From positions 1 through 17,928 of the forward strand of contig JAIYAJ010000408.1 of NCBI GenBank assembly GCA_027489105.1: a DNA stretch of 17,928 bases, read 5' to 3'. This stretch comes from Zymomonas sp. Lineage in GTDB: Bacteria > Pseudomonadota > Alphaproteobacteria > Sphingomonadales > Sphingomonadaceae. Positions 2 through 15,343 of the stretch are shown here, in pieces (positions within the stretch are counted from its first letter, which is position 1; each line of letters starts with the position of its first letter). The position numbers were made by a program, and so were the translations under genes. Below the pieces are notes generated by a model. The model ran no database searches. It was not told where the DNA came from and saw nothing but the letters and a program-made list of their open reading frames with translations.

Positions 2-145
2 CACTACCAGGAGCTGGTGGCGCTGGAGGACCGCATCGTCCTGGCGGGCGAGCACGCGTCCTATGTCGGCTGCTGGATGGAGGGCTCGCTGCTCTCCGCG
101 CTCGATGCGATCGAGCGGCTCCACCAGAAGGCCCTCGCTGCATGA
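2..145 (+). CDS. Flavin amine oxidase, C-terminal end only (AO0)
   Basis: Only the last 47 codons of this gene lie in the window; the rest is cut off by the left edge. The tail carries the C-terminal FAD-contact block of flavin amine oxidases, seen as RIVLAGEHASY followed by GCWMEGSLLSALDAI. It aligns without gaps to the C-termini of the two complete paralogues downstream, matching 36 of 47 residues with AO1 (614-2203). The stop codon overlaps the start of the following cytochrome gene (ATGA at 142-145), so the two genes are almost certainly translationally coupled. The family oxidises amines or amino acids to imines with FAD. The close linkage to a cytochrome suggests electron transfer to cytochrome c rather than oxygen; that is inference. 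Substrate unknown. Confidence 0.9.
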   Translation, partial: HYQELVALEDRIVLAGEHASYVGCWMEGSLLSALDAIERLHQKALAA

Positions 146-585
146 GTCTGGAACGGTCGTTCCTCGCAATTGCGGCTAGCTCGGTTGTCGCACTGATCGC
201 GACCGCATCCGCGTCTGCGCAGGATTCTGCCGGCGGGGTCAGCGCGGTGCAGGTCGCGAACGAGGGCAAGCTGGTCTATGAGCAGATCTGTCAGGCCTGC
301 CACATGGCCGATGCCAAGGGCGGCGGCGGCGCGGGGGCGGCAATCCCGGCTCTCGCGAACAACCCCAAGCTCAAGGACAAGGACTATCCGATCACCCTGC
401 TGCTCAAGGGGCGGGGCGGCATGCCCTGGTTCACCGACATGCTGACACCAGAGCAGATGGCGGCGGTGGCGACCTATGTCCGCAGCCATTTCAACAATTA
501 CCCCGACCCGGTGACGGTCGAGGACGTCAAGCGCGTCGGCGCGGGCAATGCTGGGGCGGTTCCCGACTGCACGACCTGCAATTGA
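142..585 (+). CDS. Periplasmic c-type cytochrome (cyt1), partner of amine oxidases
   Basis: This 147-residue protein has a Sec signal peptide (hydrophobic residues about 7-24, likely cleavage after ASA at 26) and one class I cytochrome c domain. The heme-binding motif CQACH is at C50-C53-H54. Met94 in GGMPWF is the likely second axial ligand (Met100 is an alternative). The helix around TPEQMAAVATYVRSHF (102-117) is the usual C-terminal cytochrome helix. It starts inside the stop codon of AO0 and is followed 28 bp later by AO1, so it sits between two amine oxidases and could take electrons from both. An odd feature is a C-terminal extension ending in CTTCN (C143, C146), a CxxC pair without histidine, so not a second heme site. 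Its paralogue cyt2 (11063-11485) lacks this tail. Cytochrome identity is secure; the partner assignment is inferred from context. Confidence 0.93.
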   Translation: MSLERSFLAIAASSVVALIATASASAQDSAGGVSAVQVANEGKLVYEQICQACHMADAKGGGGAGAAIPALANNPKLKDKDYPITLLLKGRGGMPWFTDMLTPEQMAAVATYVRSHFNNYPDPVTVEDVKRVGAGNAGAVPDCTTCN

Positions 586-613
586 CCGTGGAAACATCGA
601 GGGGGATCGGCCA

Positions 614-2203
614 ATGTTGAGCGAACTGGCGCCGCAGACGCGCCGCGAATGGCTGACCATGATCGGCCGCGTCGGCGGTGGCATGGCGATGTATCAGGCC
701 ATGACGGCGCTGGGGCATGCGGCCGAAACCCAGTTCACCGGGCCGCCCAAGCTGAGCGGCGCGCGGCCGGGTGCGTCCGTGCTGGTGCTGGGGGCGGGGC
801 TCGCCGGACTGGTGGCGGCCTATGAGCTGTCCAAGGCCGGTTACAAGGTCCAGCTGCTCGAATATCAGGACCGTCCGGGTGGTCGGAACTATACGGTGCG
901 CGGGGGTGACAAGATCGTCGAGGTGGGTGGCGCGACCCAGTCGGTCAATTTCGCGCCCGGCAATTATCTGAACCCGGGGCCTTGGCGCATCCCGCACCAT
1001 CACCGGACGATCCTCCATTATTGCAAGGCGTTCGGGGTGGAACTCGAGCCGTTCATCCAGATGAACCACAATGTGTTCGTCCACCGGAAGGACGCGTTCG
1101 GCGGCAAGCCGCAGCGCTATCGGGAACTCGCGGTCGACTTCAAGGGCCATGTGTCCGAGCTGTTGTCGAAGTCGCTCAACGCGGGCGCTCTCGACACGAC
1201 ATTGGGCAAGGAGGACAAGGAAAAACTCCTCGTCGCGATGCGCGAATGGGGGGTGCTCAATGCCGACCTCGCCTATGACAGCAGCATCGCGGTATCGGCC
1301 CAGCGCGGCTATGACCGCGCGCCGGGCGGTGGCGTCGGTGGTGCGCCGACCCCGTCGAAGATCAACAGCCTGGGGGACGTGCTGTCCTCGAAGGTCTGGT
1401 CGCAGATGGGCTTCTATTTCAACTATGTGATGCAGACGACGATGTTCCAGCCGAAGGGCGGCATGGACATGATCGGCAAGGCCTTCGCCAAGCAGCTGGG
1501 CGAGATGATCCGCTACAACAGCAAGGTCGTGAAGATCGCGCAGGGACCGAAGGGCGTCAGCGTCGGCTGGGAAGATGCGAAGACCGGGCAGAAAGGCGAG
1601 GCCAAGGCCGACTGGTGCGTGTGCACGCTGCCGACGAGCATCCTCAACCAGATCGACATCCAGGTGAGCGATCCGAAGAAGGCGGCGATCAAGGCGCTGC
1701 CTTATTCGAGCTCGGCCAAGATGGGGCTCGAGATGCGCCGCCGCTTCTGGGAGGAGGATTACTCCATATATGGCGGCCACAGCTTCTCCGACCATCCGTC
1801 GATCGGTACGCTGTCCTATCCCAATTTCGACTTCTTCCGTGACGCGCCGGGCATGCTGACGTCGCTGTCGGGTGGCCCGGGCGGCTTCATGATCGCGGGC
1901 ATGACCCACGAACAGCGCATGGAGGCGGCGCTCGAGCAGGGCTCGCTGTTCCACCCGGAGTTCCGCAAGGAATTTATGAATGGCGCTTCCTTCGCCTGGG
2001 CGCGCCAGCCCTGGATCCTTGGCTGTTGCGCGACCTGGACCGAGGCGACGCGCAAGGAACATTATCAGAATCTGGTGTCGCTCGACGGACGCATCGTCCT
2101 CGCTGGCGAACATGCCTCCTATTATGGCTGCTGGCAGGAGGGAGCGCTGCTGTCCTCGATCGACGCCATCACCCGACTGCACCAGCGGGCCCTGGCGGCC
2201 TAG
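614..2203 (+). CDS. Tat-exported flavin amine oxidase / amine dehydrogenase (AO1)
   Basis: This 529-residue flavoprotein belongs to the flavin monoamine oxidase / L-amino-acid oxidase family. The N-terminus has a twin-arginine-like motif TRREWL (R10, R11) followed by a moderately hydrophobic stretch ending in GHAAE, suggesting folded export with FAD bound. The dinucleotide-binding motif GAGLAG is at 60-65, with the ribose-binding acid E83 and the family's PGGR at 88-91. The C-terminal FAD block is AGEHASYYGCWQEGALLSS. The start at 614 was chosen because GAGGGGGAT lies about 7 bp upstream and because it places the Tat motif at residues 9-14. An in-frame upstream extension to 548 overlaps cyt1 and adds nothing recognisable. 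The next downstream feature is a 36-bp palindrome, so this probably ends the operon. The substrate is not evident. NicA2, a relative with the same architecture, uses a cytochrome c as acceptor. Confidence 0.9.
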   Translation: MLSELAPQTRREWLTMIGRVGGGMAMYQAMTALGHAAETQFTGPPKLSGARPGASVLVLGAGLAGLVAAYELSKAGYKVQLLEYQDRPGGRNYTVRGGDKIVEVGGATQSVNFAPGNYLNPGPWRIPHHHRTILHYCKAFGVELEPFIQMNHNVFVHRKDAFGGKPQRYRELAVDFKGHVSELLSKSLNAGALDTTLGKEDKEKLLVAMREWGVLNADLAYDSSIAVSAQRGYDRAPGGGVGGAPTPSKINSLGDVLSSKVWSQMGFYFNYVMQTTMFQPKGGMDMIGKAFAKQLGEMIRYNSKVVKIAQGPKGVSVGWEDAKTGQKGEAKADWCVCTLPTSILNQIDIQVSDPKKAAIKALPYSSSAKMGLEMRRRFWEEDYSIYGGHSFSDHPSIGTLSYPNFDFFRDAPGMLTSLSGGPGGFMIAGMTHEQRMEAALEQGSLFHPEFRKEFMNGASFAWARQPWILGCCATWTEATRKEHYQNLVSLDGRIVLAGEHASYYGCWQEGALLSSIDAITRLHQRALAA

Positions 2204-2262
2204 GATCACCGATGCGCGCCGGATCGAGCGTTGGCCTTGCGGGAGGGGAACCCCCATATGAA

Positions 2263-2298
2263 GAAGGACCTCCGATACGCGCGTATCGGAGGTCCTTC
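2263..2298. terminator. 36-bp perfect palindrome between convergent genes, likely bidirectional terminator
   Basis: The arms are 18 bp with no loop, centred between 2280 and 2281; the left arm reads GAAGGACCTCCGATACGC. It lies between the ends of two convergent genes, AO1 (stop at 2203) and the UrcA-like gene (stop at 2335), which is where a bidirectional terminator is expected. There is no clear T-run on either side, so a classic Rho-independent mechanism is not certain. Such a perfect palindrome could instead bind a dimeric protein. The rest of 2204-2334 shows no gene. Confidence 0.65.
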
Positions 2299-2334: not shown

Positions 2335-2643
2335 TCAGTTCGCTGCGACGCGGACCGAGTTGTTCTCTCCGGCCGAGCGGAGCGCCGCGTCGAGGCTGGC
2401 AGTCATCTCGCGACGGCAGCGCCAATCGGGCTGACCATCGCCGCCGACGCGATCTTCGGGCTCGCACATGGCGGCGATTTCGCGCGTCATGCGGTTCCGG
2501 AACTGTTCGACCGCGACGGGATCGAGCAGATTGACACCTTCGACCGACGTCTTGAACGACACCGGCTGACGGCCTTCGGCCGAAACGGCGACGGGCAGCG
2601 CCAGAAGGCAAGCCGCCGACAGTGCGACAACCAAGTTCTTCAT
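2335..2643 (-). CDS. Small exported UrcA-like protein
   Basis: This 102-residue protein starts with a clear Sec signal peptide (MKNLVVALSAACLLALPVAVSA, likely cleavage after residue 22). The mature part of about 80 residues contains two cysteines (C60 in AAMCEP and C76 in WRCRRE) spaced as in the UrcA family of small periplasmic proteins from sphingomonads and caulobacters, which typically show a V-x-F/Y strand, a central helix ending in VC, and a second cysteine before a final helix. The match is from memory of the family pattern, so the family name is moderate confidence; the function of UrcA proteins is not well defined. The start at 2643 is preceded by AGGAG about 9 bases upstream; an extension to 2664 would bypass this site. 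The gene points away from the acylase and shares an AT-rich intergenic region with it. Confidence 0.75.
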   Translation of the reverse strand: MKNLVVALSAACLLALPVAVSAEGRQPVSFKTSVEGVNLLDPVAVEQFRNRMTREIAAMCEPEDRVGGDGQPDWRCRREMTASLDAALRSAGENNSVRVAAN

Positions 2644-2918
2644 AGCAATTACTCCTGCAAACAATCTTTATCGTTTTGTAATAACGTTATTTTTATTTAC
2701 GCTGAAAATTTCATCAGGAGCCGTGGGACCGGTCCGGGAATTAATCGACTCTCCCGTTTCCGGAACGTTGGTCCTGTAAAGCGTTCTCTATGCGCTTGTC
2801 GCCGACATAGGTCCGCTGGCGCTTCCCGACAAGCCAAATACGTTGCTGCGCCGCAGAAATCCGCCATTTTTTTCGGAAATTACCGGCGATTTCATGCTGC
2901 ATCGCAGAGGAGGCGGCG
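2644..2918. promoter_or_regulatory. AT-rich divergent promoter region between UrcA-like gene and acylase operon
   Basis: This 275-bp gap between two divergently transcribed genes contains an AT-rich patch at about 2661-2712, a sharp contrast with the GC-rich surroundings and a likely promoter site. Symmetric elements inside it are AATAACGTTATT (2680-2691), GGACCGGTCC (2726-2735) and AAGCG-N9-CGCTT (2779-2797). One AATACG half-site (2837-2842) matches the left half of the repeat found upstream of AO2 and AO3. The ribosome-binding site of the acylase, AGAGGAGG, is at 2906-2913. No -35/-10 pair could be assigned with confidence, and no credible coding frame was seen. Confidence 0.5.
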
Positions 2919-5030
2919 ATGACGATCCCGCTGTTGCGCAAGCACCCTCCAAGTAAAGGTGTAAGATTTTCTCGCGAAATCAGTATCATCGTCTGTCTGG
3001 CCCTCGGTGGGACTGCTCATGCCGCAGGCCGGCACGGCGAAATCCTCTGGGACCGCTACGGCGTGCCCCATATCTATGCGCAGAGCGAGGCTGACGCCTT
3101 TCGCGGTTTCGGATGGGCGCAGGCGCACAGCCATGGCGACGTGATCCTGCGGCTCTACGGCCTCGCCCGGGGCCGTGGCGCCGAATATTGGGGCGCCGCG
3201 CATGTCGCCGAGGATCGCTGGACCCTGTCGCACGGCATCCCGGAGCGGGCGGCGGAGTGGTATAGGCTGCAGACGCCCGGCTTCCGCGCCGATCTCGACG
3301 CCTTCGCGGCCGGCATCAACGCCTATGCGGCGGCCCATCCCGAGGCGCTCGATAGCGAAGTACGGCGCGTGCTGCCGGTCACGGGCACCGACGTGATCGC
3401 GCACGCCCTGCGGCTGGTGAACTATGTCTATATTGCGTCCCCCCAGCGGACATTGGGGGAGGAGCCGGCCGGCGGGTCGAATGCCTGGGCGGTGGCACCG
3501 GCGCGCTCGGCCAGCGGGCGGGCGATGCTGCTCGCCAATCCGCATCTGCCCTGGGAGCCGGGCCAGTACACCTATTATGAGGCGCAGGTCAGCGCGCCCG
3601 GATTCTCAATTTACGGCGCGACGCAGGTCGGCCTGCCGATCATCCGCTTCGCCTTCACCGACAAGATCGGCTTCACCAACACGGTCAACACGATTCAGGG
3701 ATCGACCAGCTACCGCCTGACCCTGCGCGAGGGCGGCTATCTGTTCGACGGCAAGATCCGCCCCTTCGAGACGCGCGAGCGCGACCTGCTGGTGCGCGAG
3801 CCCGATGGACAGGTGCGGACCGAGCAGCTGACGATCCGCTCGACCGTCCACGGGCCGGCCTTCAGGCTGGCCGACGGCAGCATGGTAGCGGTCCATGTCG
3901 CCGGGCTCGACCGGCCGGGCATGCTCCAGCAATATTTCGATATGGCGCGGGCGTCCGGCCTCGACGAATTTGTCGGGATCCTGCGGCGGATGCAGATACC
4001 GATGTTCAACATCGTCTATGCCGACCGCGACGGCCACATATTATACATGGACAATGGCATCTTGCCGCGCCGGGGGCAGGGGGATTTCGCGCAGTGGTCC
4101 AAGCCTGTGGCGGGCGACCGTTCCGACACGCTGGTCAGCGCGATCCACAGCTATGACGATCTGCCCAAGGTCATCGACCCGCCGTCGGGCTTCGTCCAGA
4201 ACGCCAATGATCCCCCCTGGACGCCGACCTGGCCGCAGCCCTATCGCGCGTCGGATTTCCCTGCCTATGTCGCGCCGGCGGGGCCCATGTCGATGCGCGC
4301 GCAGATGTCGGTCCGCCAGTTGCGCGGCCTCGGCCGGTTGAGCTTCGACGATCTCGTCGCGCGCAAGCATGACACGACCGCGCTGATGGCAGGGCGGGTG
4401 CTGCCTGCGCTGCTGCCCGCAGCTTTAGGTTCGGCCGATCCGCTCATCCGCAACGCAGGCGCGGTGCTTGCCGCCTGGGATGGCCGCTTCGAGGCGGAGT
4501 CGCGGGGGGCGCTGCTGTTCGAGAATTGGGCGCGGCTGTTCATGGGAACGCGCCTTGCCGACGATGCGTCCTTCGCAAGGCGTTGGGACGCGGCGGCTCC
4601 GATAGACACCCCCGACGGCATCGCCGACATGGCCGTGGCGCTGCGCCATCTGAAACAGGCAGCCGAGACGACCATCGCCGACCATGGCGCGCTCGATCGC
4701 CCCTTCGGCGAGGTGTCGCGCTTTGCGGTCGGCGATGTCGACCGGCCAGGCAATGGCGGTTTCGGCAATCTTGGCGTTTTCCGCACGATCACCTGGGGCC
4801 CGCTCCGCAATGGGCGGCGGACGCCGGTCGCGGGCGAGACCTGGGTTGCCATGATCGAGTTCGGCCCCAAGGCGCGCGCCATGGGCGTGATGAGCTATGG
4901 CAACAGCAGCCAGCCCGGCTCGTCCCATCGCGGCGATCAGATCGACCTTATTTCCCGCAAGCAACTCCGCACGCTCTGGACCGAGCGCGCGCAAGTAGAG
5001 ACCAACCTTGAAGCCCGCACCGATTATTGA
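2919..5030 (+). CDS. Ntn-hydrolase acylase, penicillin/aculeacin/AHL acylase superfamily
   Basis: This 703-residue protein belongs to the penicillin acylase family, which hydrolyses amide bonds between an acyl chain and an amine after autocatalytic cleavage into two chains in the periplasm. A signal sequence ends near AHA-A (33-36). The alpha-chain begins with [11 protein letters not shown] (44-54) and [12 protein letters not shown] (63-74). The cleavage site is GG-SNAW, making Ser187 the predicted nucleophile and first residue of the beta-chain. The catalytic asparagine region is QNANDPPW (N428/N430), and HGP in the beta-chain is also typical. The 703-residue length fits the family. GAGG upstream of ATG 2919 supports the start. 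Its 3' end overlaps the next gene by 23 bp, tying it to the RND efflux pair. Overall features look closer to aculeacin/AHL acylases than to penicillin G acylase, but the substrate is unknown. Confidence 0.92.
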
Positions 5031-6186
5031 ACCGTCGCACCGTCGCCGCCCGGCCCTGCTGGTCGCGTTCGTCCTGCTGTCGCTCGCCGGCTGCGGCGGA
5101 CGTGAGCAGCGCGACAAGGGGCCGCCCGAGGTGGGCTACCGGGTGCTCCAATTTCAGGACGTGCCCTATGAGGCCGAACTGCCCGGCCGTACGACCGCCG
5201 TCAGGGAGGCCGAGGTCCGCCCGCAGATTACCGGCGTGGTCCGGCGCCGCCTGTTCGAGGAGGGGCAATTCGTCCGCGCGGGGCAGCCGCTCTATGAGAT
5301 CGATCCGAGCCTCTACCGCGCTGCGGTCCAGCAGGCGTCGGCCAACCTGGCCGCCGCCGAGGCGCTGGCGAAGGCGAGCCGCAAGCGCGCCGACCGGCTG
5401 ACCCCGCTCGCCTCTGTTCAGGCGGTCTCGCAGCAGGACTTCGATGATGCCGTTGCGACGTCGCAGCAGGCGGCTGCAGCCGTCGCACAGAACCGGGCCG
5501 CGCTGGAAACCGCGCGCATCAATCTGCGCTTCACCACAGTCCCGGCGCCGGTATCCGGCATTATCGGCCGGTCGCTGCTGACCGAGGGCGCACTGGTAAG
5601 CGTCAACCAGGTCGATCCGATGGCGCGGATCAGCGTGCTCGATCCGATCAATGTCGACATCCAGCAAAATGCGACCGATCTCTTCCGGCTTCGGCGGCTC
5701 GCGCTGCGCGGCGGGCAGGGCATGGGCGTGGCCGTGCGGCTGAAGCTCGACGATGGCGAGGTCTATCCCGTTGTCGGGCGGCTGCAGTTCACCGAGGTAT
5801 CGGTGGCGACGGGAACCAGCACTGTGACCTTGCGGGCGCGCTTCGCCAATTCCGACAATCTGCTGCTGCCCGGAATGTTCGTCCGCGCGATGCTGGAGAA
5901 GGGCATCCAGCGGCAGGTCATGCTGGTGCCTCAGAGCGCGCTCGGCCGCGATGCGCAGGGGCGGGCGCAGGTGCTGCTGGTGGGCAAGGGGAACAAGGCC
6001 GAACAGAGGTTGGTCACCGCAGAGCGCACCGTAGGCAGCGACTGGGTCGTCACCACCGGCCTGAAACCCGGCGACAAGCTGATCACTCAGGGGCTCGGCA
6101 AGGCGCGACCCGATCAGCCCGTGAAGCCGGTGCCCGACACGACGCCGCAACGGCCGAAGCCGGCCAAGGACAAGACGGCGCGCTGA
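5008..6186 (+). CDS. RND efflux periplasmic adaptor lipoprotein (AcrA/MexA type)
   Basis: This 392-residue membrane fusion protein links an inner-membrane RND pump to an outer-membrane channel. It has a lipoprotein signal with lipobox LAGC, placing the lipidated Cys at 29. The barrel-sandwich/lipoyl half-motif [30 protein letters not shown] segment lies at about 67-92. An alanine-rich alpha-hairpin spans about 105-165, and the second lipoyl half ([20 protein letters not shown]) is at about 180-199. The C-terminal tail is rich in Pro and Lys. The predicted start is TTG at 5008, inside the acylase gene; no better in-frame start exists before the signal sequence, so termination-reinitiation is likely. 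The RND pump follows 4 bp after the stop. No outer-membrane TolC/OprM-type factor is encoded in the window, so one must come from elsewhere. Confidence 0.94.
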
Positions 6187-6190
6187 CGGC

Positions 6191-9100
6191 ATGTCCCGCT
6201 TTTTCATAGCCCGGCCGATCCTGGCCTGCGTCGTCGCGATCATCACCATCCTCGTCGGCGTGGTGGCGCTGACGACGATGTCGATCGAGCAATTTCCGGA
6301 CATCGCTCCGCCCCAGGTGAACGTCAACGCGACCTATCCGGGCGCGTCGGCGACCACGCTGGAAACCAGCGTGACGCAGGTTATCGAGCAGCAACTGACC
6401 GGTATCGACGGGCTGCTCTATTTCAGCGCTACCTCCAGCGCGCAGGGGCAGGTCCAACTTACCGTCGTGTTCGAAAAGGGCACCAATCCCGACATCGCTC
6501 AGGTGCAGGTCCAGAACAAGGTCCAGCAGGCGATGGGGCGGCTGCCCCAGGCGGTGCAGGAACAGGGCGTCACCGTCACCAAATCCAATCCCGATCAGCT
6601 GTTGATCGCGACCATCTTCGATACCACCGACCGGTCGACCAACATCGACGTGGCCGACTTCATGGTCTCACGGCTGCAGGATCCGATCGGCCGCATCCCC
6701 GGTGTCGGCCAGACGACCGTCTTCGGCACCCAATATGCGATGCGCATCTGGCTGGATCCCAACAAGCTGGCGGCCAATGCGTTGATGCCGGGGGATGTGA
6801 TCCAGGCAGTCGCGTCGCAGAATGTCGAGGTGGCGGCGGGCGTGGTCGGCGGCTTGCCGAGCCCGGCCGGCCAACTGCTCAACGCCACCATCACGGCGCA
6901 GTCGCGGCTGACCTCGCCCGAGGAATTCGCGCGGATCGTCGTCAAGTCGTCGGTGGACGGCGCATCGGTGCTGCTGTCGGATGTCGCCCGGATCGAACTG
7001 GGGGCCGAGAGCTACAATGTCGTCAGCCGGGTCAACCGGCACCCCGGCGCCGGCATGGGCATCTCGCTCGCCCCCGGTGCCGATGCACTCGTTACCGCGC
7101 GGCTGGTGAAGGCCGAGTTCGAGAAGCAGGTGAAGAATTTTCCGCCGGGCTTTTCCTATGCCTATGCCAACGACACCACCGCCTTTCTCGAGAAGTCGGT
7201 CGAGGATGTGGTGCACACGCTGTTCGAGGCGGTCGTGCTGGTCGTTCTCGTCATCTTCATCTTCCTGCAGAGCTGGCGCGCGACGCTGATCCCGGCGATC
7301 GCGGTTCCGGTCGTCCTGCTGGGTACCTTCGCGGTGCTCGCCATGGTCGGCTATTCGATCAACACGCTCACCCTGTTCGGCATGGTGCTGGCGATCGGCC
7401 TGCTGGTCGACGACGCGATCGTGGTGGTCGAGAATGTCGAGCGGCTGATGCACGAAAATCCGGGCATGTCCCCGCGCGAAGCGACGATCCTGTCGATGCA
7501 GGAGATACAGGGCGCGCTGGTGGCGATAGCGTTGGTCCTGTCGGCGGTGTTTCTGCCGATGGCCTTCTTCGGGGGATCGACCGGCGTCATCTATCGCCAA
7601 TTCTCGGTTACGATCGTGTCGGCGATGGCGCTGTCGGTGCTGGTCGCGCTGATCCTCAGTCCCGCGCTCACTTCGACCATCCTCAAGCCGCGTGAAGATG
7701 GCGGCGAGGGCACGGGCCGGTTCGCACGGTGGAGCCTCGCCTTTCATCACTGGTTCGAGCCGCGCTTCAACCGACTGGCGGATCGCTATCATGCACGGCT
7801 GAGCTGGACGATCGGCCGCCGGCGCGGTGCGATGATCCTCTACGGGGCCATGGTCCTTATCCTCGCCCTGCTGTTCGTGCGTCTGCCGACCGGCTTTCTC
7901 CCGAGCGAGGACCAGGGGTTCGCACAGCTGCAATATACGTTGCCCTCGGGCGCCACGCTGGAGCGGACCCGCGCCGCCCAGCGGCAGATCGAGGATTATC
8001 TGCTCGGTCAGGAGAGCAAGAACATCAAGACGCTGCTGACCGTTGCGGGCGCCGGCAGCGGCGGCAGCGCCAGCGGCCAGAATGCCGGGCGCGGCTTCAT
8101 GTCGCTCGTCAATTGGGACGACCGCCCCGGCGCGGCGCGCACCGCGAACGCGATTGCCGCGCGCGCTACCCGTGCGCTGGGAGGCTATCGCGATCTGGAG
8201 TTTTACGCAATCGTGCCTTCGGTGGTGCGCGGGCTCGGCCAGTCTTCGGGCTTCACCGCCGAATTGCAGAACAGTGGTGGGCTGCCTCGCGACGCCTTCG
8301 TCGCCATTCGCGACCAGGTGCTGGCGGAGGCGCGCGCCGATCCGCTGCTGACCAATGTGCGGCTGACCACCTTGCCCGACCAGCCGACGCTGCGCATCAC
8401 GACCGATAACCAGAAGCTGTCGGCGCTGGGCGTGTCGGTCGCAGACGCCAACGCCACCCTCGCCGCGGCGTGGGGCGGCCGCTACGTCAATGATTTCGTC
8501 GACCGCGGACGGGTCAAGCGGGTCTATGTCCAGGCCGATGCACCCTTCCGCTCGCGGCCCGAAGATGTCGGTCTGTGGCAGGTGCGCGGCAATGCGGGGC
8601 AGATGGTGCCCTTCTCGGCCTTCGCCGCCATTTCCTGGAATCAGGCGCCGACCTCGCTGAGCCGGTTCAACGGCATCCCCAATTTCGAGATCAACGGCCA
8701 GGCGGCACCGGGCTCCAGTTCGGGGCAGGCGATGGCCGCGATCGAGGCGATCATCGCCAAATATCCGGGGGTCTCGCTCGCCTGGGCGGGCGCGTCCTTT
8801 CAGGAGCGGCTGGCGGGCGGGCAGTCGGGCATCCTCTACGCCCTCGCGCTGCTGGTAGTGTTTCTATGTCTCGCCGGCCTGTACGAAAGCTGGTCGGTGC
8901 CCGTCGCCGTGCTGTTCGTCATTCCGCTGGGGCTGCTCGGTGCGATCCTGGCGGTGTCCTTCCGCGGATTGCAGAACGACGTCTATCTGCAGATCGGGCT
9001 GGTGACGACGATGGGGCTCGCCGCCAAGAACGCCATCCTGATGATCGAGTTTGCCGAGCGGTCGGTCCGCGAAGGGCGTGGCGCGGTCGAGGCGGTGCTC

Positions 9101-9340
9101 GATGCCGCCCGCATCCGCCTGCGGCCGATCCTGATGACCAGCTCGGCCTTCATTTTCGGCGTGCTGCCGCTGGTGGTGGCGACCGGGCCTGGCGCAAACA
9201 GCCGCATCGCAATCGGTACGTCGGTCCTGGGCGGGATGCTCTCGGCCACGATCCTCGCGATCTTCTACATCCCGCTGGGTTTCATTCTGGTCCATCAACT
9301 CGTGGAACGCTGGCGTGCCCGACGCGGACGGGCGGGCTGA
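6191..9340 (+). CDS. RND multidrug efflux pump, HAE-1 family (AcrB/MexB type)
   Basis: This 1049-residue inner-membrane proton/drug antiporter has full HAE-1 length. It begins with the typical N-terminus MSRFFIARPILACVVAI (TM1), followed by the porter-domain segment MSIEQFPDIAPPQV. The proton-relay aspartates are D407 and D408 in GLLVDDAIVVVENVERLM, at the same numbers as in E. coli AcrB. The relay lysine is K946 in GLAAKNAILMIEFAE. FFGGSTGVIYRQFSVT marks the central transmembrane block and LPSGATL lies in the second porter half. It works with the adaptor immediately upstream and an outer-membrane factor not present here. Pairing with an acylase suggests handling of an acylated or amine-containing compound, but HAE-1 pumps are broad and the specificity cannot be read from the sequence. 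Confidence 0.96.
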   Translation: MSRFFIARPILACVVAIITILVGVVALTTMSIEQFPDIAPPQVNVNATYPGASATTLETSVTQVIEQQLTGIDGLLYFSATSSAQGQVQLTVVFEKGTNPDIAQVQVQNKVQQAMGRLPQAVQEQGVTVTKSNPDQLLIATIFDTTDRSTNIDVADFMVSRLQDPIGRIPGVGQTTVFGTQYAMRIWLDPNKLAANALMPGDVIQAVASQNVEVAAGVVGGLPSPAGQLLNATITAQSRLTSPEEFARIVVKSSVDGASVLLSDVARIELGAESYNVVSRVNRHPGAGMGISLAPGADALVTARLVKAEFEKQVKNFPPGFSYAYANDTTAFLEKSVEDVVHTLFEAVVLVVLVIFIFLQSWRATLIPAIAVPVVLLGTFAVLAMVGYSINTLTLFGMVLAIGLLVDDAIVVVENVERLMHENPGMSPREATILSMQEIQGALVAIALVLSAVFLPMAFFGGSTGVIYRQFSVTIVSAMALSVLVALILSPALTSTILKPREDGGEGTGRFARWSLAFHHWFEPRFNRLADRYHARLSWTIGRRRGAMILYGAMVLILALLFVRLPTGFLPSEDQGFAQLQYTLPSGATLERTRAAQRQIEDYLLGQESKNIKTLLTVAGAGSGGSASGQNAGRGFMSLVNWDDRPGAARTANAIAARATRALGGYRDLEFYAIVPSVVRGLGQSSGFTAELQNSGGLPRDAFVAIRDQVLAEARADPLLTNVRLTTLPDQPTLRITTDNQKLSALGVSVADANATLAAAWGGRYVNDFVDRGRVKRVYVQADAPFRSRPEDVGLWQVRGNAGQMVPFSAFAAISWNQAPTSLSRFNGIPNFEINGQAAPGSSSGQAMAAIEAIIAKYPGVSLAWAGASFQERLAGGQSGILYALALLVVFLCLAGLYESWSVPVAVLFVIPLGLLGAILAVSFRGLQNDVYLQIGLVTTMGLAAKNAILMIEFAERSVREGRGAVEAVLDAARIRLRPILMTSSAFIFGVLPLVVATGPGANSRIAIGTSVLGGMLSATILAIFYIPLGFILVHQLVERWRARRGRAG

Positions 9341-9458: not shown

Positions 9459-11051
9459 ATGGCCGAAGAGCAAGTCGGGGGCATGACCAAGCGGGACCTG
9501 CTGGCGCTGATCGGCAAGGCAGGCGGGGCGTCCGCCATGTATATGGCGATGTCTAGCCTCGGCCACGCCGCGCCGACGCCCTTCAAGGGCCCGATCGATC
9601 TGGCCGGCGGCGCGAAAGGGGCGTCGGTTCTGATCCTCGGCGCGGGCGTCGCCGGGATGACGGCGGCGCTGGAGCTTAGCCGTGCGGGCTACAAGGTTCA
9701 GGTGCTCGAGTATAACGACCGCATCGGCGGGCGCTGCTGGACGCTCAAGGGCGGCGACACCTACACCGAGCTGGGCGGCGCTACCCAGAAATGCACTTTC
9801 GCCTCGGGCAATTACATCAATCCGGGCCCCTGGCGCATCCCCTGGCAACATCGCGGGATCATGCATTATTGCCAGCAGCTGGGCGTCGCGCTCGAGCCGT
9901 TCCAGCAGCTCAACTACAACGCCTATCTCCACTCGACCAAGGCCTTCGGCGGCAAGCCGCAGCGCTACAGCACGATCCAGGCCGACTTTTACGGCCATGT
10001 CGGCGAGCTGCTCGCCAAGTCGGTGAAGAAGAGCGCGCTGACCGATGAGGTCAGCGCCGAGGACAGCGCGATCCTGCTGGAGGCGCTGAAGAGCTGGGGG
10101 GCGCTCGATTCCAGCTATCGCTATGTCAAGGGCCCGGAATCTTCGGGCCGGCGCGGATGGAAGAAGAATCCCGGTGGCGGGCTGACGGCCGAGCCGATCC
10201 CGTCTGATCCGCTCGACCTGTCGACGGTGCTGAAATCCGGCCTGTGGCGCGGTATCGGCCAGCATCTGACCAACGACCACCAACATGCGATCTTCCAGCC
10301 GGTGGGCGGCATGGAGCAGGTCGCCAAGGGCTATGAGCGCGCCGTCGGTCATCTCGTGCGGCTGAACAGCAAGGTGAAGGCGATCCGCCAGTCCGAGAGT
10401 GGCGTGACGGTCGACTATGTCGACACGATCAAGGGCGACAAGCTCACGGCCAAGGCCGACTGGTGCATCTGCACGATCCCGCTGTCGATCCTCAGCCAGA
10501 TCGAGATGAACGTCGGCCCGGATCTGAATGCGGCGATCCATGCCGTGCCCTATCTGCCGGGCCTCAAGACCGGCATCGAGTTCAAACGGCGCTTCTGGGA
10601 GCAGGACGAGCAGATCTACGGCGGCATCACCACTACCGATCTTCCGATCGGGCAGATCAGCTATCCCAGTTACAATTACGGCTCGAAGGGGCCGGGTACG
10701 CTGCTCGCAGCCTATGCCTATGGCGCCTATGCCTATGAATATACCAGCCTGCCGCCCGAGGAGCGGGTGCGCCGCACGCTCGAATGGGGCGCGCAGATCC
10801 ACCCGCAATATCGCGAGGAGTTCGTCAGCGGCGTGTCGGTCGGCTGGCACCGCGTGCCGTGGACGCAGGGCTGCTTCGGCATCTGGACCGAGGAGAGCCG
10901 GGCGCAGCATTACAAGAATCTGTGCCAGCTCGACGGGCGCATCGTGCTGGCGGGTGAGCATGCTTCCTATGTCGGCGGCTGGCAGGAGGGCGGCATAACC
11001 TCCGCACTCGATGCGATCGGGCGGCTGCATCAGCGCGTTCAGGCGGCGTGA
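9459..11051 (+). CDS. Exported flavin amine oxidase / amine dehydrogenase (AO2)
   Basis: This 530-residue paralogue of AO1 contains the FAD motif GAGVAG (61-66) with its acidic residue at the end of the second strand (QVLEYNDRIGGR), and the C-terminal FAD block AGEHASYVGGWQEGG. The middle shares strongly conserved blocks with AO1 such as NPGPWRIP, FGGKPQRY and GHV-ELL-KS. The N-terminus keeps the Tat-like layout, but the twin arginine is Lys-Arg (TKRDLL, K11-R12), a rarer variant of the motif, followed by GKAGGASAMYMAMSSLGHAA. ATG 9459 is preferred because of GGGGA 5 bp upstream; ATG 9483, which would leave a very short n-region, is a possible alternative. A cytochrome gene follows 11 bp after the stop, repeating the AO-cytochrome order of AO0-cyt1. 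Substrate unknown. Confidence 0.9.
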   Translation: MAEEQVGGMTKRDLLALIGKAGGASAMYMAMSSLGHAAPTPFKGPIDLAGGAKGASVLILGAGVAGMTAALELSRAGYKVQVLEYNDRIGGRCWTLKGGDTYTELGGATQKCTFASGNYINPGPWRIPWQHRGIMHYCQQLGVALEPFQQLNYNAYLHSTKAFGGKPQRYSTIQADFYGHVGELLAKSVKKSALTDEVSAEDSAILLEALKSWGALDSSYRYVKGPESSGRRGWKKNPGGGLTAEPIPSDPLDLSTVLKSGLWRGIGQHLTNDHQHAIFQPVGGMEQVAKGYERAVGHLVRLNSKVKAIRQSESGVTVDYVDTIKGDKLTAKADWCICTIPLSILSQIEMNVGPDLNAAIHAVPYLPGLKTGIEFKRRFWEQDEQIYGGITTTDLPIGQISYPSYNYGSKGPGTLLAAYAYGAYAYEYTSLPPEERVRRTLEWGAQIHPQYREEFVSGVSVGWHRVPWTQGCFGIWTEESRAQHYKNLCQLDGRIVLAGEHASYVGGWQEGGITSALDAIGRLHQRVQAA

Positions 11052-11062: not shown

Positions 11063-11485
11063 ATGAGCAAGAGCATTTCCGTCCTTCGTCTCGTGGCGCT
11101 GGTGCTGGCGGCGGGTGGCGCCGTCGCGGCGGTCGCGCAGAGCGGCCCGGCAGGCGACGCCGACGGCGCCTTCGTCACCGGCGCGAAATTTAGCGAACCC
11201 AATGGCGAGGCAATGTACCGCCGGGTCTATGCCGGTTGCCATATGCCGAAGGGCGAGGGGGTGTCGACCGGGGCTGGTTTCTATCCGGCGCTCGCAGGCA
11301 ATCCGAAGCTCGAGGCCAGCGGCTATCCGGTGTACATCCTGCTCAACGGGATGAACGGCATGCCTGCCGTGGGCCGGATGATGAGCGACCAGCAGGTGGC
11401 CGATGTGGTCAACTATGTCCGGACCCACTTCGGCAACAGCTATAACGATGCTGTTACCGCCGAAGAGGTGAAGGCGCTTCGCTAA
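11063..11485 (+). CDS. Exported cytochrome c-like protein with single-cysteine heme motif (cyt2)
   Basis: This 140-residue protein has a Sec signal (hydrophobic residues about 7-24, cleavage likely near VAQ) and a cytochrome c domain clearly homologous to cyt1: MYRRVYAGCHM aligns with VYEQICQACHM, and YPALAGNPKL with IPALANNPKL. The heme motif reads Y56-A-G-C59-H60, so the first cysteine of CxxCH is a tyrosine. The codon is TAT at 11228-11230; TGT, one base away, would restore Cys. The expected axial ligand is retained (Met100 in NGMPAVG), as is the C-terminal helix QVADVVNYVRTHF. The reading frame is intact with a good ribosome-binding site (AAGGGA, 6 bp spacing), arguing against a decayed gene. 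It may hold heme by one thioether bond, or the tyrosine may reflect a sequencing error. It is most likely the electron acceptor of AO2. Confidence 0.88.
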   Translation: MSKSISVLRLVALVLAAGGAVAAVAQSGPAGDADGAFVTGAKFSEPNGEAMYRRVYAGCHMPKGEGVSTGAGFYPALAGNPKLEASGYPVYILLNGMNGMPAVGRMMSDQQVADVVNYVRTHFGNSYNDAVTAEEVKALR

Positions 11486-11581: not shown

Positions 11582-13234
11582 GTGGCTGGAGCGGTTGCGT
11601 GGGACCGGGAAGCGGACGTGGTCGTCCTGGGATCGGGCGGAGCAGCGATGACCGCTGCGATCACTGCCCATGATTTCGGGGCGAAGGATGTCGTGATCCT
11701 CGAACGCTCGGGCATGGTGGGCGGCACCACCGCCATGTCGGGCGGGATGTTGTGGATCCCCAACAATCACCACCAGCAGGCGGCCGGGATCGCGGATTCG
11801 GACGAGGAGATCGTCACCTATCTCGACTCGCTCGCGCCGGGAGCGCTCGATCCCGAGACTTTGTGGGCGTTCATGCAGAACGGTCCCGAAATGCTCCGCT
11901 ATCTCGACGAGAAGACGCCGGTGCGGCTCCACGCTTTTACCGATTTCCCGGACTATCAGCCTTATGCGCCGGGCGCGAAGCCCGACGGTGGGCGATCGCT
12001 CGACAATGCAGCCTTTTCCTTCGCACGGCTCGGCAAATGGTCGTCGCGCGTCAATCCGAGCAAGATGGCCTACCCGCTGCGCGGCAGCCTGATGGAGGCG
12101 ACGCGCGGGACGCTCGATGAGGAAACCCTCGCCGAGCGCGAGACGGGCGACTATCGCGGACTGGGGCAGGCGCTGGCGGGATCGCTGTTCCTGGCGGTAA
12201 TCGAGCGGAACATACCGGTGGAGTTCGAGACGCGCGCCCGCCGCCTGGTCAAGGACGGCGACCGGGTCGTCGGCGTGATCGCCGAAGATGCGAATGGCCG
12301 TACCATCCATGTTCGCGCGAGGCGGGGCGTGGTCATCGCCACCGGTGGCTTCGAGTGGAACGAGACGCTGGTGAAGAGCTTCCTGCGCGGTCCGCTGACC
12401 GGTCCGGTGAGCGTTCCCGAAAATGAAGGCGACGGTCTGCTGATGGCGATCGAGGCCGGCGCGCAGGTCGCCAATATGCAGAACGCCTACTGGATGCAGA
12501 GCACGCTGGAGTTCAAACCGCAGCACCGCGCGGCCAAGCCCAATTATCTGCTCGGTTCCGACGAGCGTGCCCGGCCGGGCGCCATATTGGTCAATCGCAA
12601 GGGGCAGCGCTTCGTCAACGAGGCCGCCAACTACAATGCGCTCGGCAAGTCGCTGCACGCCTTCGATGCGGGAACGCACAGCTATGCGAACCTGCCCTAC
12701 TGGTTGATCCTCGATCAGCGCTACAAGGACAAATATCATCTGTTCAATGCCGCGCCCGGCGCGCCTGCGCCCGCCTTTGCGATGAAGGCCGACACGCTGG
12801 AGGAACTGGCGCAGATCGCGGGCATAGAAGCCGAGGGGCTGTGTGCGCAGGTCGACCGCTTCAACGCCATGGTCCGTAACGGCCATGACGACGAGTTCAA
12901 TCGCGGCGACAATAGCTATGACAATTTCTACATGTGGGGCGACATGGAGTTCGAGCCGCCCTTCCGCACATTGGGCGTGATCGACAAGCCGCCTTTCTAT
13001 GCGGTGAAGATGGAGGCGGGTGCCCTGGGGACGGCGGGAGGCCCCAAGACCAATGCCGATGGGCAGGTGGTCGACTGGCAGGGCAATGCGATCCCCGGCC
13101 TCTACGCGGCTGGCAATGCGATGGCGGCTGTGCTGGGCGATGTCTATGGCGGTGCGGGCGGCACGCTCGGTCCCGGCATGACCTTCGGATACATCGCCGG
13201 CAAGCATCTGGGGGCGCATCTGCCGAACCATTGA
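11582..13234 (+). CDS. FAD-dependent oxidoreductase, 3-ketosteroid dehydrogenase (KstD)/fumarate reductase type
   Basis: This 550-residue flavoprotein starts with GTG, preceded by AGGAGAG at suitable spacing. The FAD-binding motif GSGGAA is at 17-22, followed by ERSGMVGGTTAMSGG (41-55), typical of the FAD_binding_2 family. The C-terminal block GLYAAGN...VYGGAGGTLGPGMTFGYIAGKHL is very like 3-ketosteroid-delta1-dehydrogenases. From family knowledge, KstD1 uses Tyr119, Tyr318, Tyr487 and Gly491. Plausible equivalents here are Y125 (PDYQPY), Y351 (NEAANY), Y522 and G526 (Y-G-G-A-G). This supports a ketone desaturase acting on a steroid-like or cyclic ketone, although related enzymes reduce or dehydrogenate other substrates. 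No signal peptide is seen, so it is probably cytoplasmic. It is convergent with AO3, with 36 bp between the stop codons and no obvious terminator. Confidence 0.88.
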   Translation: MAGAVAWDREADVVVLGSGGAAMTAAITAHDFGAKDVVILERSGMVGGTTAMSGGMLWIPNNHHQQAAGIADSDEEIVTYLDSLAPGALDPETLWAFMQNGPEMLRYLDEKTPVRLHAFTDFPDYQPYAPGAKPDGGRSLDNAAFSFARLGKWSSRVNPSKMAYPLRGSLMEATRGTLDEETLAERETGDYRGLGQALAGSLFLAVIERNIPVEFETRARRLVKDGDRVVGVIAEDANGRTIHVRARRGVVIATGGFEWNETLVKSFLRGPLTGPVSVPENEGDGLLMAIEAGAQVANMQNAYWMQSTLEFKPQHRAAKPNYLLGSDERARPGAILVNRKGQRFVNEAANYNALGKSLHAFDAGTHSYANLPYWLILDQRYKDKYHLFNAAPGAPAPAFAMKADTLEELAQIAGIEAEGLCAQVDRFNAMVRNGHDDEFNRGDNSYDNFYMWGDMEFEPPFRTLGVIDKPPFYAVKMEAGALGTAGGPKTNADGQVVDWQGNAIPGLYAAGNAMAAVLGDVYGGAGGTLGPGMTFGYIAGKHLGAHLPNH

Positions 13235-13270
13235 GCGGCGGACGCGGGCGCTGTCGACGGTAGGTGCCGT

Positions 13271-14830
13271 TCAGGCGCGCGCGGCCATCTGCCGCGCGTG
13301 GATCGACGAGACGACATAGCGTCCCGACTGGATCGCGCCCTCTTGCCAGCCCGAATGGGTCAGCCAGTCGGCGGCGAAATAGAAGGGACCGTCCGCCTTG
13401 TTCATGGCGTGGTACAGCGGATCGTCGCCGACGAAGTTCGCCTTATTGCCTTCGTTGTAGGGGATCTTGCCCCAGTTGACGACGATCGGCTTGGACAGCG
13501 ATTTGCCATGGCCCGGGAAGATCGCGTCGATCTCCGCCTGGGCGAAGCGGTGTTGCTCGGCCATTGGCATCGACGTCACCCGTTCGCCACCCATGTAGAT
13601 ATAATAGACGGTGATGCCCTTCAGCCGGTTGAACCCGCCGGACGGGTGCCAGATGGTGGCGCCGGGGTCCTTGGTGAAGGACAGCCCGCCATAGATCTGG
13701 AAGTCCCGTTCCCAGAAACGCGGGGATTCGAAACCGATCTTGACCGCATTGCCATAGAAGACGTCGCCGATCCGGTCGCGGATCTCGGGTGAGAAATCCG
13801 ACGGGATGCGCGCGAGGACGGGCAGGGGGATGGTGCAGACGCAGTAGTCAGCCAGCACCTCCTGGCTCTTGCCGGTCCGGCGATCCTTGTAGACGATCCT
13901 GGTGCCCCGGTCTCCGGGCCCACCCGTCCGGCGGATCTCGGTGACCTCGCTCATCAGGCGGATGACCCCGGCCGGGAATTTGCGCGCGATCGCCTTCGGG
14001 ATGGCATCCATGCCGCCGACCGGTTGCAGCATCGTCGCCTGATCGTCGATCATGTCCTCGAAGATCAGGGTGTTCCACATATCGAGGTCGAGCAGCGCTG
14101 CCATGTCGAGCCGGTCCTCGCGCACCGTCTTCGCCTCGGCCGGTCCCGGCGCCACCTTGTAGCCGGACCGCTTCGATCCCTTGTAGAAGAGGTCCTCGCT
14201 CAGATCGCCATATTGCCGGAGGAAGGCCAGCATTCGCTCCTTGTCGAGCCGCGTCATCTCCTGATCGAGCGCGCCGCCGTTGATCGCCTTGGCGAGCAGT
14301 TCCGAGACGGCCCCGCGCGTGTCGTTGACGGCCCGGCGGAAACGGATCGGCTTACCGTCGAGCGCGTTCGCGTTGCGCAGGAAGGCGGATCGGCTGGCGT
14401 TGACCTCGACCTCCATCTCGACCCCCAGGTCACGGCAATAGTCGAGCACCGCCTGATGGTGGCTGGGAATGCGCGCGGGGCCGGTATTGAAATATTCGCC
14501 TGCATCGTAGCGGCAGGTCTGCACCGATCCGTCGGTCCATTCGACCCGGTCGCCGTTGCGAACGGTCCAGTTATGCCCGCCGACGCGATCGCGCGCCTCG
14601 AGCAGGACGACATCATAACCGGCCTTCAGCAATTCGTCGGTCGCGGCGAGCCCGGCCAGGCCGGCGCCGAGAACCACCACCCGAATGCCGCTGCCCGAGC
14701 CCTTGGGAAGGTCCAGCGGCTTGACCGATGCATAAGCGGGCAACATGCCAAGCGACTGCATCAGGGCATAGGTCGCGCCATAGCCTCCTACCTTGCCGAC
14801 GGCTTCGAGGAACTGGCGTCGCGTCGTCAT
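13271..14830 (-). CDS. Tat-exported flavin amine oxidase / amine dehydrogenase (AO3)
   Basis: This 519-residue flavin amine oxidase is divergent from AO0-AO2 but of the same architecture. It starts with a canonical twin-arginine motif TTRRQFLEA (R4, R5) and the shared segment GKVGGYGATYALMQSLG. The FAD motif GAGLAG is at 55-60, followed by LLEARDRVGGHNWTV. A block NTGPARIPSHHQAVLDYCRDLGVE-type segment aligns with the other paralogues. Near the C-terminus, FAADWLTHSGWQEGAIQSG keeps WQEGA but replaces AGEHAS with AADWLT, suggesting a different active site. The start at 14830 is chosen because GAGGA lies about 9 bases upstream and it puts the Tat motif at the very N-terminus; the frame remains open upstream to 15121 but that part overlaps the divergent cytochrome gene. 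The neighbouring divergent cytochrome is the likely electron acceptor. Confidence 0.9.
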   Translation of the reverse strand: MTTRRQFLEAVGKVGGYGATYALMQSLGMLPAYASVKPLDLPKGSGSGIRVVVLGAGLAGLAATDELLKAGYDVVLLEARDRVGGHNWTVRNGDRVEWTDGSVQTCRYDAGEYFNTGPARIPSHHQAVLDYCRDLGVEMEVEVNASRSAFLRNANALDGKPIRFRRAVNDTRGAVSELLAKAINGGALDQEMTRLDKERMLAFLRQYGDLSEDLFYKGSKRSGYKVAPGPAEAKTVREDRLDMAALLDLDMWNTLIFEDMIDDQATMLQPVGGMDAIPKAIARKFPAGVIRLMSEVTEIRRTGGPGDRGTRIVYKDRRTGKSQEVLADYCVCTIPLPVLARIPSDFSPEIRDRIGDVFYGNAVKIGFESPRFWERDFQIYGGLSFTKDPGATIWHPSGGFNRLKGITVYYIYMGGERVTSMPMAEQHRFAQAEIDAIFPGHGKSLSKPIVVNWGKIPYNEGNKANFVGDDPLYHAMNKADGPFYFAADWLTHSGWQEGAIQSGRYVVSSIHARQMAARA

Positions 14831-14962
14831 ATTGGCTGTCCTCGCCCCAGGATGGGATGTTCGACTGTAGGGAGTGGTCCGTGCGGCCGAATACGGCGAA
14901 TGTCGTATTGGCGCCGCAGCTCCCGCGTTGCCCATAGGGAGGCTCATGATCGGGGGACTCGA
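14831..14962. promoter_or_regulatory. Divergent AO3/cyt3 promoter region with inverted-repeat operator candidate
   Basis: This 132-bp region separates the start codons of AO3 (minus) and cyt3 (plus). It contains a 20-bp inverted repeat at 14890-14909, AATACG-N8-CGTATT, near the middle of the gap (centre about 70 bp from AO3 and 63 bp from cyt3). It matches the element upstream of AO2 at 14 of 20 positions, including both half-sites. One regulator binding here could control both divergent genes. Each gene has its own Shine-Dalgarno sequence (GAGGA for AO3, GGGGGA for cyt3). Confidence 0.55.
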
Positions 14963-15343
14963 ATGCGCGATGCTGGCCGAGGCGCACGACGCCTGCTTCT
15001 GCTGATGACCGCGTTTTGCCTCCCCGCCGAGGTCCGGCCCGAATCCATGCCGGATGGCAGCCAAGTCCCTGAGTTCGCAGAGGTTCGCCGTATCGTGTCG
15101 GCGCGCTGCCGCTTCTGCCACACGCAGGTGCCTCAGGAAGATGGCCTCAACGCCGCGTCTCAGCCGCCGAGGGGGGTAAAGTTCGACACCCCGGCCGATT
15201 ATCGTCTCTTCGCCGGGATGATCGGCGCCACCGCCGTCGACAGCCGATTCATGCCGCCCGATAACGCGACCCGGATCACCGACGCGGAGCGCGCGACGCT
15301 GGGGCGCTGGATCGCTGCCGGCGCGCCCGTCCCCCCACCCTGA
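14963..15343 (+). CDS. Small exported c-type cytochrome (cyt3), PuuD-type cytochrome domain
   Basis: This 126-residue protein has a short signal-like N-terminus (RR followed by LLLLMTAFCLP, residues 9-21) and one cytochrome c domain with heme motif CRFCH (C49, C52, H53). Met97 in RFMPPDN is the probable axial ligand. The pattern around it (GVKFDTP..., FMPPDNATRIT, ERATLGRWIAAGAP) resembles the cytochrome domain fused to the C-terminus of the membrane urate oxidase PuuD, and is unlike cyt1/cyt2. That comparison is from memory of the family. The start at 14963 is supported by GGGGGA about 5-6 bp upstream; the open frame upstream of it is antisense to AO3 and not real. It is transcribed divergently from AO3, which suggests that it is AO3's electron acceptor. 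Confidence 0.85.
   Translation: MRDAGRGARRLLLLMTAFCLPAEVRPESMPDGSQVPEFAEVRRIVSARCRFCHTQVPQEDGLNAASQPPRGVKFDTPADYRLFAGMIGATAVDSRFMPPDNATRITDAERATLGRWIAAGAPVPPP

Follow-up and report, generated by a model that had tools for sequence, protein, structure and literature searches.

What do four flavin amine oxidase genes oxidize, and to what do their products pass the electrons, when they lie among genes for cytochromes c? This question is raised by a stretch of 17,928 nucleotides from Zymomonas sp. (assembly GCA_027489105.1, contig JAIYAJ010000408.1, positions 1 to 17,928; the whole stretch is here called the window). It carries the amine oxidase (AO) genes AO0 to AO3 and the cytochrome genes cyt1 to cyt3 (Table 1), read in an initial annotation as repeated cassettes of one periplasmic system. 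Translations and Pfam matches confirmed the positions given there for all seven genes; AO3 is on the minus strand, the strand having been left unstated. The best reading of the locus is periplasmic respiratory deamination of L-amino acids or derivatives. AO0/AO1-cyt1 and AO2-cyt2 are probably respiratory cassettes for L-amino acid dehydrogenation in the periplasm, of the same kind as lao-cccA-ridA, with AO3-cyt3 as an independent, later-added pair, a view in which we have reasonable confidence.

Family and substrate pocket of the flavoenzymes

The L-amino acid oxidase (LAAO) of Rhodococcus opacus (roLAAO, 2jae) was the top solved-structure match of AO1, AO2 and AO3 by a wide margin (Table 1; for AO2, among the best 60 of 111 matches listed). 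In a fold search with a predicted model of AO3 (pLDDT 76.5), 2jae/2jb1 took the first three places (TM 0.81/0.88 for the top one), with snake-venom LAAOs and monoamine oxidases ranking well below; as the model is of middling confidence, just its top fold matches are relied on. The wide lead of 2jae argues against a NicA2-like identity for AO1-AO3, so that NicA2 and pseudooxynicotine oxidase (Pnao), the family guides of the initial annotation, give way to the R. opacus-type LAAO, which appears from these alignments to be the nearest family.

Pocket residues were compared in 132 aligned rows: roLAAO itself and 131 AO rows, a few of which duplicate a locus that was retrieved twice. The RIP-motif Arg of roLAAO and the Lys that aligns with its flavin Lys were each present in 132/132 rows. 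The position aligned with a roLAAO Tyr was occupied by Tyr in 107 rows and by Phe in 20 (127/132); it is Leu in AO1, Phe in the AO0 of a syntenic genome (G298) and Ile in AO3, although a second alignment puts a Tyr of AO3 there and the AO3 residue is uncertain. We take the RIP-motif Arg and the aligned Tyr to be binders of the substrate carboxylate. The AO enzymes have the roLAAO-type fold and the residues of its flavin adenine dinucleotide (FAD) site and substrate pocket, with Leu in AO1 and the uncertain residue in AO3. The role of the flavin-adjacent Lys is taken from PMC12224317. Because the nearest family is the R. opacus-type LAAO, alpha-amino acids are the likelier substrates. Alpha-amino acids are the default guess for AO2; the pocket of AO1 is changed.

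Conserved pairing with cytochrome genes

Export signals of the AO and cytochrome proteins were judged by reading N-termini. All three cytochromes have the signal-like N-termini that had been attributed to them. The twin-arginine translocation (Tat)-like N-termini ascribed to the three complete enzymes were recovered in AO1 and AO3, and AO2 has KR in place of the twin Arg (Table 1). As for the three cytochrome genes, cyt1 has its Pfam match and cyt3 its CxxCH, with the haem motif of cyt2 altered. The genetic tie of flavoenzymes with Tat-like N-termini to cytochromes with signal-like N-termini is upheld, as is a likely respiratory role.

This tie extends well beyond the window. A genome scan with AO2 gave 63 loci, 62 of them with an AO match at 1e-20 (L063 was dropped). 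Adjacency was scored as a same-strand CxxCH motif within 650 bp whose reading frame includes a signal-like stretch, as judged by a home-made rule. The survey of genomes suggested in the initial annotation found an adjacent CxxCH for 69/74 AO pieces (60/62 loci), compared with 30/5000 random positions on the same contigs away from AO genes. The five pieces lacking CxxCH were in L017 (AO3-type), L051 (91 bp from a contig end), L053 (both pieces of a broken gene) and L058 (a 38%-identical Bacteroidota protein). A stricter version, blind to any cytochrome whose longest frame overran the AO gene, gave 37/74 against 40/1990. In loci L068-L094, where either strand was allowed within about 1.5 kb, a cytochrome was present in 27/27 (L069-L071 repeat loci of the 62-locus set, and L068 is G298). 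It is clear that the AO-cytochrome arrangement is real, non-random and conserved.

The arrangement is also found outside sphingomonads. Thirty-seven plasmid records had an AO match, and in all four that were opened (Deinococcus radiodurans, Rhizobium tropici, Comamonas odontotermitis and Sulfitobacter indolifex) an annotated cytochrome c adjoins the AO gene, followed by RidA in C. odontotermitis and S. indolifex. In the family of G001, 298 genomes were sampled, of which 52 had an AO match at 1e-60 and 26 at 1e-170 or better, several with at least two to four copies, these being minimum numbers because four candidates were scored per genome. Two or three CxxCH proteins surround one AO gene in L080, L082 and L086, suggesting tandem AO-cytochrome cassettes. 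In L053 (5111-6585), an AO1-type gene is seemingly interrupted (two pieces) and adjoins an AO2 cassette and a RidA with a signal-like N-terminus.

Relation to the lao-cccA-ridA operon

A single cassette of this kind has been described in Gluconacetobacter diazotrophicus, a plant-associated bacterium. Two Tn5 insertions in lao, a gene of the operon lao-cccA-ridA, abolish formation of indole-3-acetic acid (IAA) from tryptophan (PMC5053998). According to the same account, cytochrome c maturation (ccm) mutants make 5% of the IAA, and its authors propose that the cytochrome participates in LAAO electron transfer. The lao locus was located via the published lao/cccA/ridA primers (PMC5053998): the lao forward primer matched exactly in 2/397 searched genomes, with all six primers exact in L125 and five of six in L124. 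Compared with these two loci, AO1 (57% identical) and AO2 (55%) are lao-clade flavoenzymes, and cyt1 and cyt2 are 46-47% and 46-49% identical, respectively. As a co-directional CccA-type cytochrome with CxxCH, cyt1 fits; cyt2 is homologous but in the window is without the first Cys.

A tree of 82 rows, built by a quick method and with long branches for roLAAO, L060, L058 and L064, placed AO1, AO2 and lao in one 57-row clade (SH-aLRT 100). Within it, AO0/AO1 and the Acetobacteraceae lao form a 21-row subclade (SH-aLRT 100). AO3 belongs to a 20-row clade apart from AO1/AO2 (SH-aLRT 96). Rows paired with a cytochrome are found beyond the 57-row clade as well (L060, and the first AO of L033 with L094). 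AO0/AO1 and AO2 are thus two branches of one cytochrome c-paired clade, with AO3 elsewhere. The cassettes are repeated, as initially annotated, but do not form a uniform four-enzyme array, which is ruled out by the separate clade of AO3 and by its insertion or deletion relative to G298.

The likely acceptor may be judged by analogy with a stopped-flow study of 25 flavin amine oxidase (FAO) proteins (PMC12224317). FAOs of clades 2 and 3, with a Tat signal and an adjacent cytochrome c gene, are reported there as fast with cytochrome c and slower with O2; Tat-carrying FAOs without such a neighbour are mostly fast with O2. By this rule AO1 and AO2 should be dehydrogenases. As the 5000 top NicA2 matches were its starting point, that survey may not cover the LAAO lineage.

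RidA and a TonB-dependent receptor in a syntenic genome

RidA is an imine deaminase. Genome G298 is syntenic with positions 1-13242 (86% DNA identity) and 15382-17928 (83%) of the window by blastn and contains the complete AO0 gene (L099:7463-9055, minus strand). A RidA-family gene, encoding a protein with a signal-like N-terminus, lies there directly upstream of AO0 and is itself preceded by a TonB-dependent receptor gene. Both bear on the mechanism and, lying to the left of the window edge, were outside the view of the initial annotation. Over 129 residues, the G298 RidA shares 46% identity with that of the L125 genome.

Using a RidA profile, a same-strand RidA was found within 1.5 kb of 24/84 AO pieces (23/68 loci) and of 97/5000 random positions. 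All 24 AO-adjacent RidA proteins have a signal-like N-terminus, and two of the 24 AO pieces are one broken gene. Three RidA proteins encoded next to AO genes, themselves among the 24 positives, served as seeds of the profile, which was then extended on the AO loci; because such seeding favours this subfamily, the comparison indicates that this subfamily clusters with AO genes, not that other RidA proteins are absent elsewhere. A second RidA-family gene, divergent from a TonB-dependent receptor gene, recurs near AO cassettes (L099:12270-13094, plus strand; L007:18236-19156, plus; L008:16661-17161, minus; L013:19584-20108, plus; L014:17553-18149, plus).

The AO3-cyt3 pair

The segment carrying AO3 and cyt3 (Table 1) is an insertion relative to G298, or was lost there. 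AO3 is 35% identical to lao and lies in a different clade. Its neighbour cyt3 scores under the Pfam cut-off (21.4 against 27 bits) but has CxxCH; it has 7 relatives at 1e-3 in a protein search, and C49, C52, H53 and M97 are invariant in a 9-row alignment. It gave no match at 1e-8 to CccA-type cytochromes.

A cytochrome passing the filters was found within 1.5 kb, on either strand, in 0/27 AO3-type loci (25 distinct, three shortened by contig ends); L107, L108, L111 and L123 have CxxCH in some open frame of at least 60 codons that fails the filters. A cyt3 homologue nevertheless lies 180-200 bp from an AO3 homologue (71-74% identical), divergently as in the window, in G706 and G006 (the genome of L017). 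The divergent pair is thus present in all three places examined that have AO3 itself or a protein at least 70% identical to it. Since the wider AO3-type loci are without a cytochrome, yet the window, G706 and G006 have cyt3, a small AO3 group seems to have gained its own cytochrome.

Proposed mechanism and alternatives

In the proposed mechanism, the outer-membrane TonB-dependent receptor would import a nutrient; where there is an acylase, it may cleave a periplasmic precursor of N-acyl or peptide-like type. The flavoenzyme, exported folded by Tat, would transfer hydride from an L-alpha-amino acid to FAD, and the reduced flavin would pass two electrons, one by one, to the adjoining cytochrome c and from there to a terminal oxidase. 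Exported RidA would hydrolyse the 2-imino acid to a 2-oxo acid and ammonium. Several enzymes with different pockets may widen the substrate range. AO3-cyt3 would follow the same general design with another cytochrome, added later and independently. Gene content, homology, the conserved pairing, the RidA with a signal-like N-terminus beside some cassettes, the fold and the pocket Arg were all computed here, and from them we infer the export, substrate class and electron route of the cassettes. Cytochrome c as acceptor and the role of RidA are carried over from accounts of other systems (PMC12224317, PMC5053998).

Several points weigh against this mechanism. Tyr replaces the first haem Cys of cyt2. 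CxxCH was found in 119 of the best 120 listed of 1891 cyt2 homologues, the sole exception being the window's own protein, and the syntenic copy in G298 keeps the Cys. This rules out a family of cytochromes with naturally one Cys and points rather to a change private to the window or to a base error, the latter being possible because the window is a single contig. If the Tyr is real, normal maturation may fail and AO2 would need another acceptor, for example cyt1. The twin Arg of AO2 is KR; as KR occurs in 31/132 rows (window positions 9459-9520 included), all of them of the AO2 group (Sphingomonadales), it is a conserved trait of that group. With Leu at the Tyr/Phe position, AO1 at least may not use ordinary amino acids. 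The sequence is silent on the acceptor, since roLAAO is an O2-using oxidase and the flavin Lys is kept throughout. Tn5 in lao also lowers cccA and ridA transcripts, so that these genetics cannot separate the three genes (PMC5053998), and clade 1 FAOs with an adjacent cytochrome c gene are reported as slow with both acceptors, which makes the genetic rule imperfect (PMC12224317). No RidA was found within the window, which is cut at AO0, by the RidA profile search, and 60/84 AO pieces had none nearby on the same strand within 1.5 kb. A TonB receptor occurred within 4 kb of AO in 21/68 loci, a modest excess over random positions (426/4000). The acylase link rests on two arrangements, those of window/G298 and of Caulobacter (L033), and 0/10 other sphingomonad acylase loci had AO, cytochrome or RND matches within 1.5 kb. 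Our confidence in respiratory deamination is slightly lowered by three of these points: the polarity of the Tn5 insertions, the slowness of clade 1 FAOs and the way in which the RidA profile was seeded.

The same genes might instead encode secreted O2-using LAAOs making H2O2, the cytochromes taking part in peroxide handling or general respiration and receiving no flavin electrons. In its favour are roLAAO as the nearest solved relative, the flavin Lys found in all 132 rows, the speed with O2 reported for most Tat FAOs without an adjacent cytochrome c (PMC12224317) and the AO3-type loci, 0/27 of which (25 distinct) had a cytochrome passing the filters within 1.5 kb. We regard it as improbable in view of the near-universal cytochrome pairing among the sampled AO1/AO2-type loci and of the ccm mutants of G. 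diazotrophicus, reported to lose IAA formation (PMC5053998). For AO3 and cyt3, the idea that an exported oxidase happens to adjoin the gene of an unrelated cytochrome, the two being functionally separate, comes closer to an even chance while staying short of it: cyt3 is divergently transcribed and of another family, and the wider AO3-like group had no filter-passing cytochrome within 1.5 kb (0/25 distinct loci), but the divergent pair recurs in the window, G006 and G706.

It could also be that amines, or other compounds that are not amino acids, are oxidized and that the set forms an island dedicated to the catabolism of a single natural product or pollutant containing nitrogen, with the acylase, the KstD-like protein and the RND pump in one pathway. 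The order AO0-cyt1-AO1-acylase-RND-AO2-cyt2-KstD is kept in G298 with 84-97% protein identity, L003 has a KstD relative (35%) next to cyt2 but on the other strand, the AO1 pocket is changed, and a TonB receptor gene lies upstream in G298. The amino-acid-oxidase fold and its conserved Arg argue in the other direction, as does RidA, whose described substrates are the imines that amino acid oxidases form (PMC5053998); elsewhere, there was no RND pair above 55% identity, and KstD relatives were confined to L003 and a distant one (29%) in L055. We regard a catabolic island as rather unlikely.

Respiratory deamination by the AO0/AO1 and AO2 cassettes remains the preferred reading. We are evenly divided on a broader claim, namely that the roLAAO-type lineage, widespread and separate from the NicA2-derived clades, is a further one whose flavoenzymes serve as respiratory L-amino acid dehydrogenases, that exported RidA completes a fully periplasmic deamination module in many of its members, that sphingomonads have expanded it into multi-enzyme arrays, and that AO3 independently recruited an unrelated cytochrome. 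If true, many proteins annotated as H2O2-making monoamine or L-amino acid oxidases would be respiratory dehydrogenases. This would alter the view of how extracellular amino acids are linked to energy conservation and, in plant-associated bacteria, to the making of auxin (IAA). Given its relatives that have no neighbouring cytochrome, AO3-cyt3 would be a clean natural case of acceptor switching by a flavoenzyme.

Other genes of the window

From left to right, the genes are AO0, cyt1, AO1, a UrcA-family gene (minus strand), the acylase gene, the RND pair, AO2, cyt2, the KstD-like gene, AO3 (minus strand), cyt3, an EgtD-like methyltransferase gene and that for RNase HII. AO0 and cyt1 overlap by 4 bp, and gaps of 28 bp and 11 bp separate cyt1 from AO1 and AO2 from cyt2.

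Table 1. Features of the 17,928-nucleotide window, with the matches on which each assignment is based
Feature	Position	Strand	Evidence
AO0, C-terminal 47 aa of L-amino-acid-oxidase-type flavoenzyme, cut by window edge	2..145	+	translation; 77% to AO1 end; complete homologue in G298
cyt1, mono-haem cytochrome c, signal-like N-terminus, motif CQACH	142..585	+	PF13442 2.8e-12, PF00034 also; 92.5% to G298; 46-47% to lao-cluster cytochrome
AO1, Tat-like (TRREWL) L-amino-acid-oxidase-type flavoenzyme	614..2203	+	PF01593 4.6e-55; 2jae 2.4e-81; 57% to G. diazotrophicus-type lao
UrcA-family small protein, signal-like N-terminus	2335..2664	-	TIGR04433 2e-10; 95% in G298
Penicillin-amidase-family acylase, signal-like N-terminus, PvdQ-like	2919..5030	+	PF01804 4.6e-120; 84% in G298
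RND efflux membrane-fusion protein	5008..6186	+	PF16576 2.3e-13
RND transporter (AcrB type)	6191..9340	+	PF00873 E=0
AO2, L-amino-acid-oxidase-type flavoenzyme, KR (TKRDLL) for twin RR	9459..11051	+	PF01593 2e-57; 2jae 5e-87; 97% in G298; 55% to lao
cyt2, AO2-cassette cytochrome c, signal-like N-terminus, first haem Cys replaced by Tyr	11063..11485	+	PF13442/PF00034 match, PF13442 7.8e-8
cyt2 altered haem motif YAGCH (not CxxCH)	11228..11242	+	codon 56 TAT (11228-11230); TGT in G298
3-ketosteroid/4-oxocyclohexanecarboxylate dehydrogenase-like (KstD-like) flavoprotein, no obvious export signal	11582..13234	+	NF009478 4.7e-127, NF053676 1.9e-125, both under cut-off; 96% in G298
AO3, Tat-like (TRRQFL) L-amino-acid-oxidase-fold flavoenzyme, separate clade	13271..14830	-	PF01593 6.2e-40; 2jae 3e-70; model; tree
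cyt3, small CxxCH protein of another family, signal-like N-terminus, divergent from AO3	14963..15343	+	CxxCH; same divergent pair in G006, G706
AO3+cyt3 segment absent from otherwise syntenic G298	13243..15381	.	blastn, window against G298

The acylase scored 233.9 of 950 bits against the PvdQ model NF051460, far under its cut-off. Its case as a regular part of the system is weak, given the ten sphingomonad loci described above, though in Caulobacter sp. S45 (L033:1837-12000) it lies between two cassettes in the order AO-cytochrome-acylase-AO-cytochrome, beside a TonB-dependent receptor gene and with 46% identity to the window's acylase. The KstD-like gene and the RND pair are both kept in G298. 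Small UrcA-family proteins recur near AO-cytochrome cassettes, as in the window and at L004:19692-19973, L013:20782-20964, L014:18753-19001 and L053:6734-6982. The EgtD-like histidine-specific methyltransferase gene (PF10017, 15445-17124) directly precedes that for RNase HII.

Comparison with known systems

The arrangement is already known from lao-cccA-ridA (PMC5053998), and the general principle from amine dehydrogenases that use cytochrome c (PMC12224317); we know of no other paper on this system in the open-access literature. With roLAAO (2jae, 2jb1) the AO enzymes have in common the fold, the FAD site, the RIP-motif Arg and the flavin Lys, but roLAAO is an O2-using oxidase, whereas AO1-AO3 have adjoining cytochrome genes and changed pocket residues. 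The system of NicA2, CycN and Pnao and other cytochrome c-using amine dehydrogenases, as set out in PMC12224317, have a Tat signal on the flavoenzyme, to which the Tat-like N-termini of AO1 and AO3 (KR in AO2) would correspond, and an adjacent cytochrome with a Sec signal; they resemble the window in the placing of one cytochrome gene between two flavoenzyme genes. Adjacent cytochromes c with signal-like N-termini are present here too, the haem site of cyt2 excepted; the nearest solved relatives of AO1-AO3, in contrast, are LAAOs. The periplasmic LAAO of Chlamydomonas with its RidA-like subunit, as told in PMC5053998, also brings an LAAO and a RidA-type protein together outside the cytoplasm, but it is eukaryotic and that account tells of no cytochrome partner.

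Closest of all is lao-cccA-ridA of G. diazotrophicus PAL5, with its roLAAO-type flavoenzyme bearing a Tat signal, adjacent cytochrome c and RidA (PMC5053998). That operon is a single cassette with RidA after the cytochrome, whereas here there are two enzyme branches, a cytochrome between two enzymes (AO0-cyt1-AO1) and, in G298, a RidA upstream of AO0; the acylase, the RND pump, the KstD-like gene and the AO3-cyt3 pair are extra. The system in the window is thus an enlarged relative of the known single-cassette operon.

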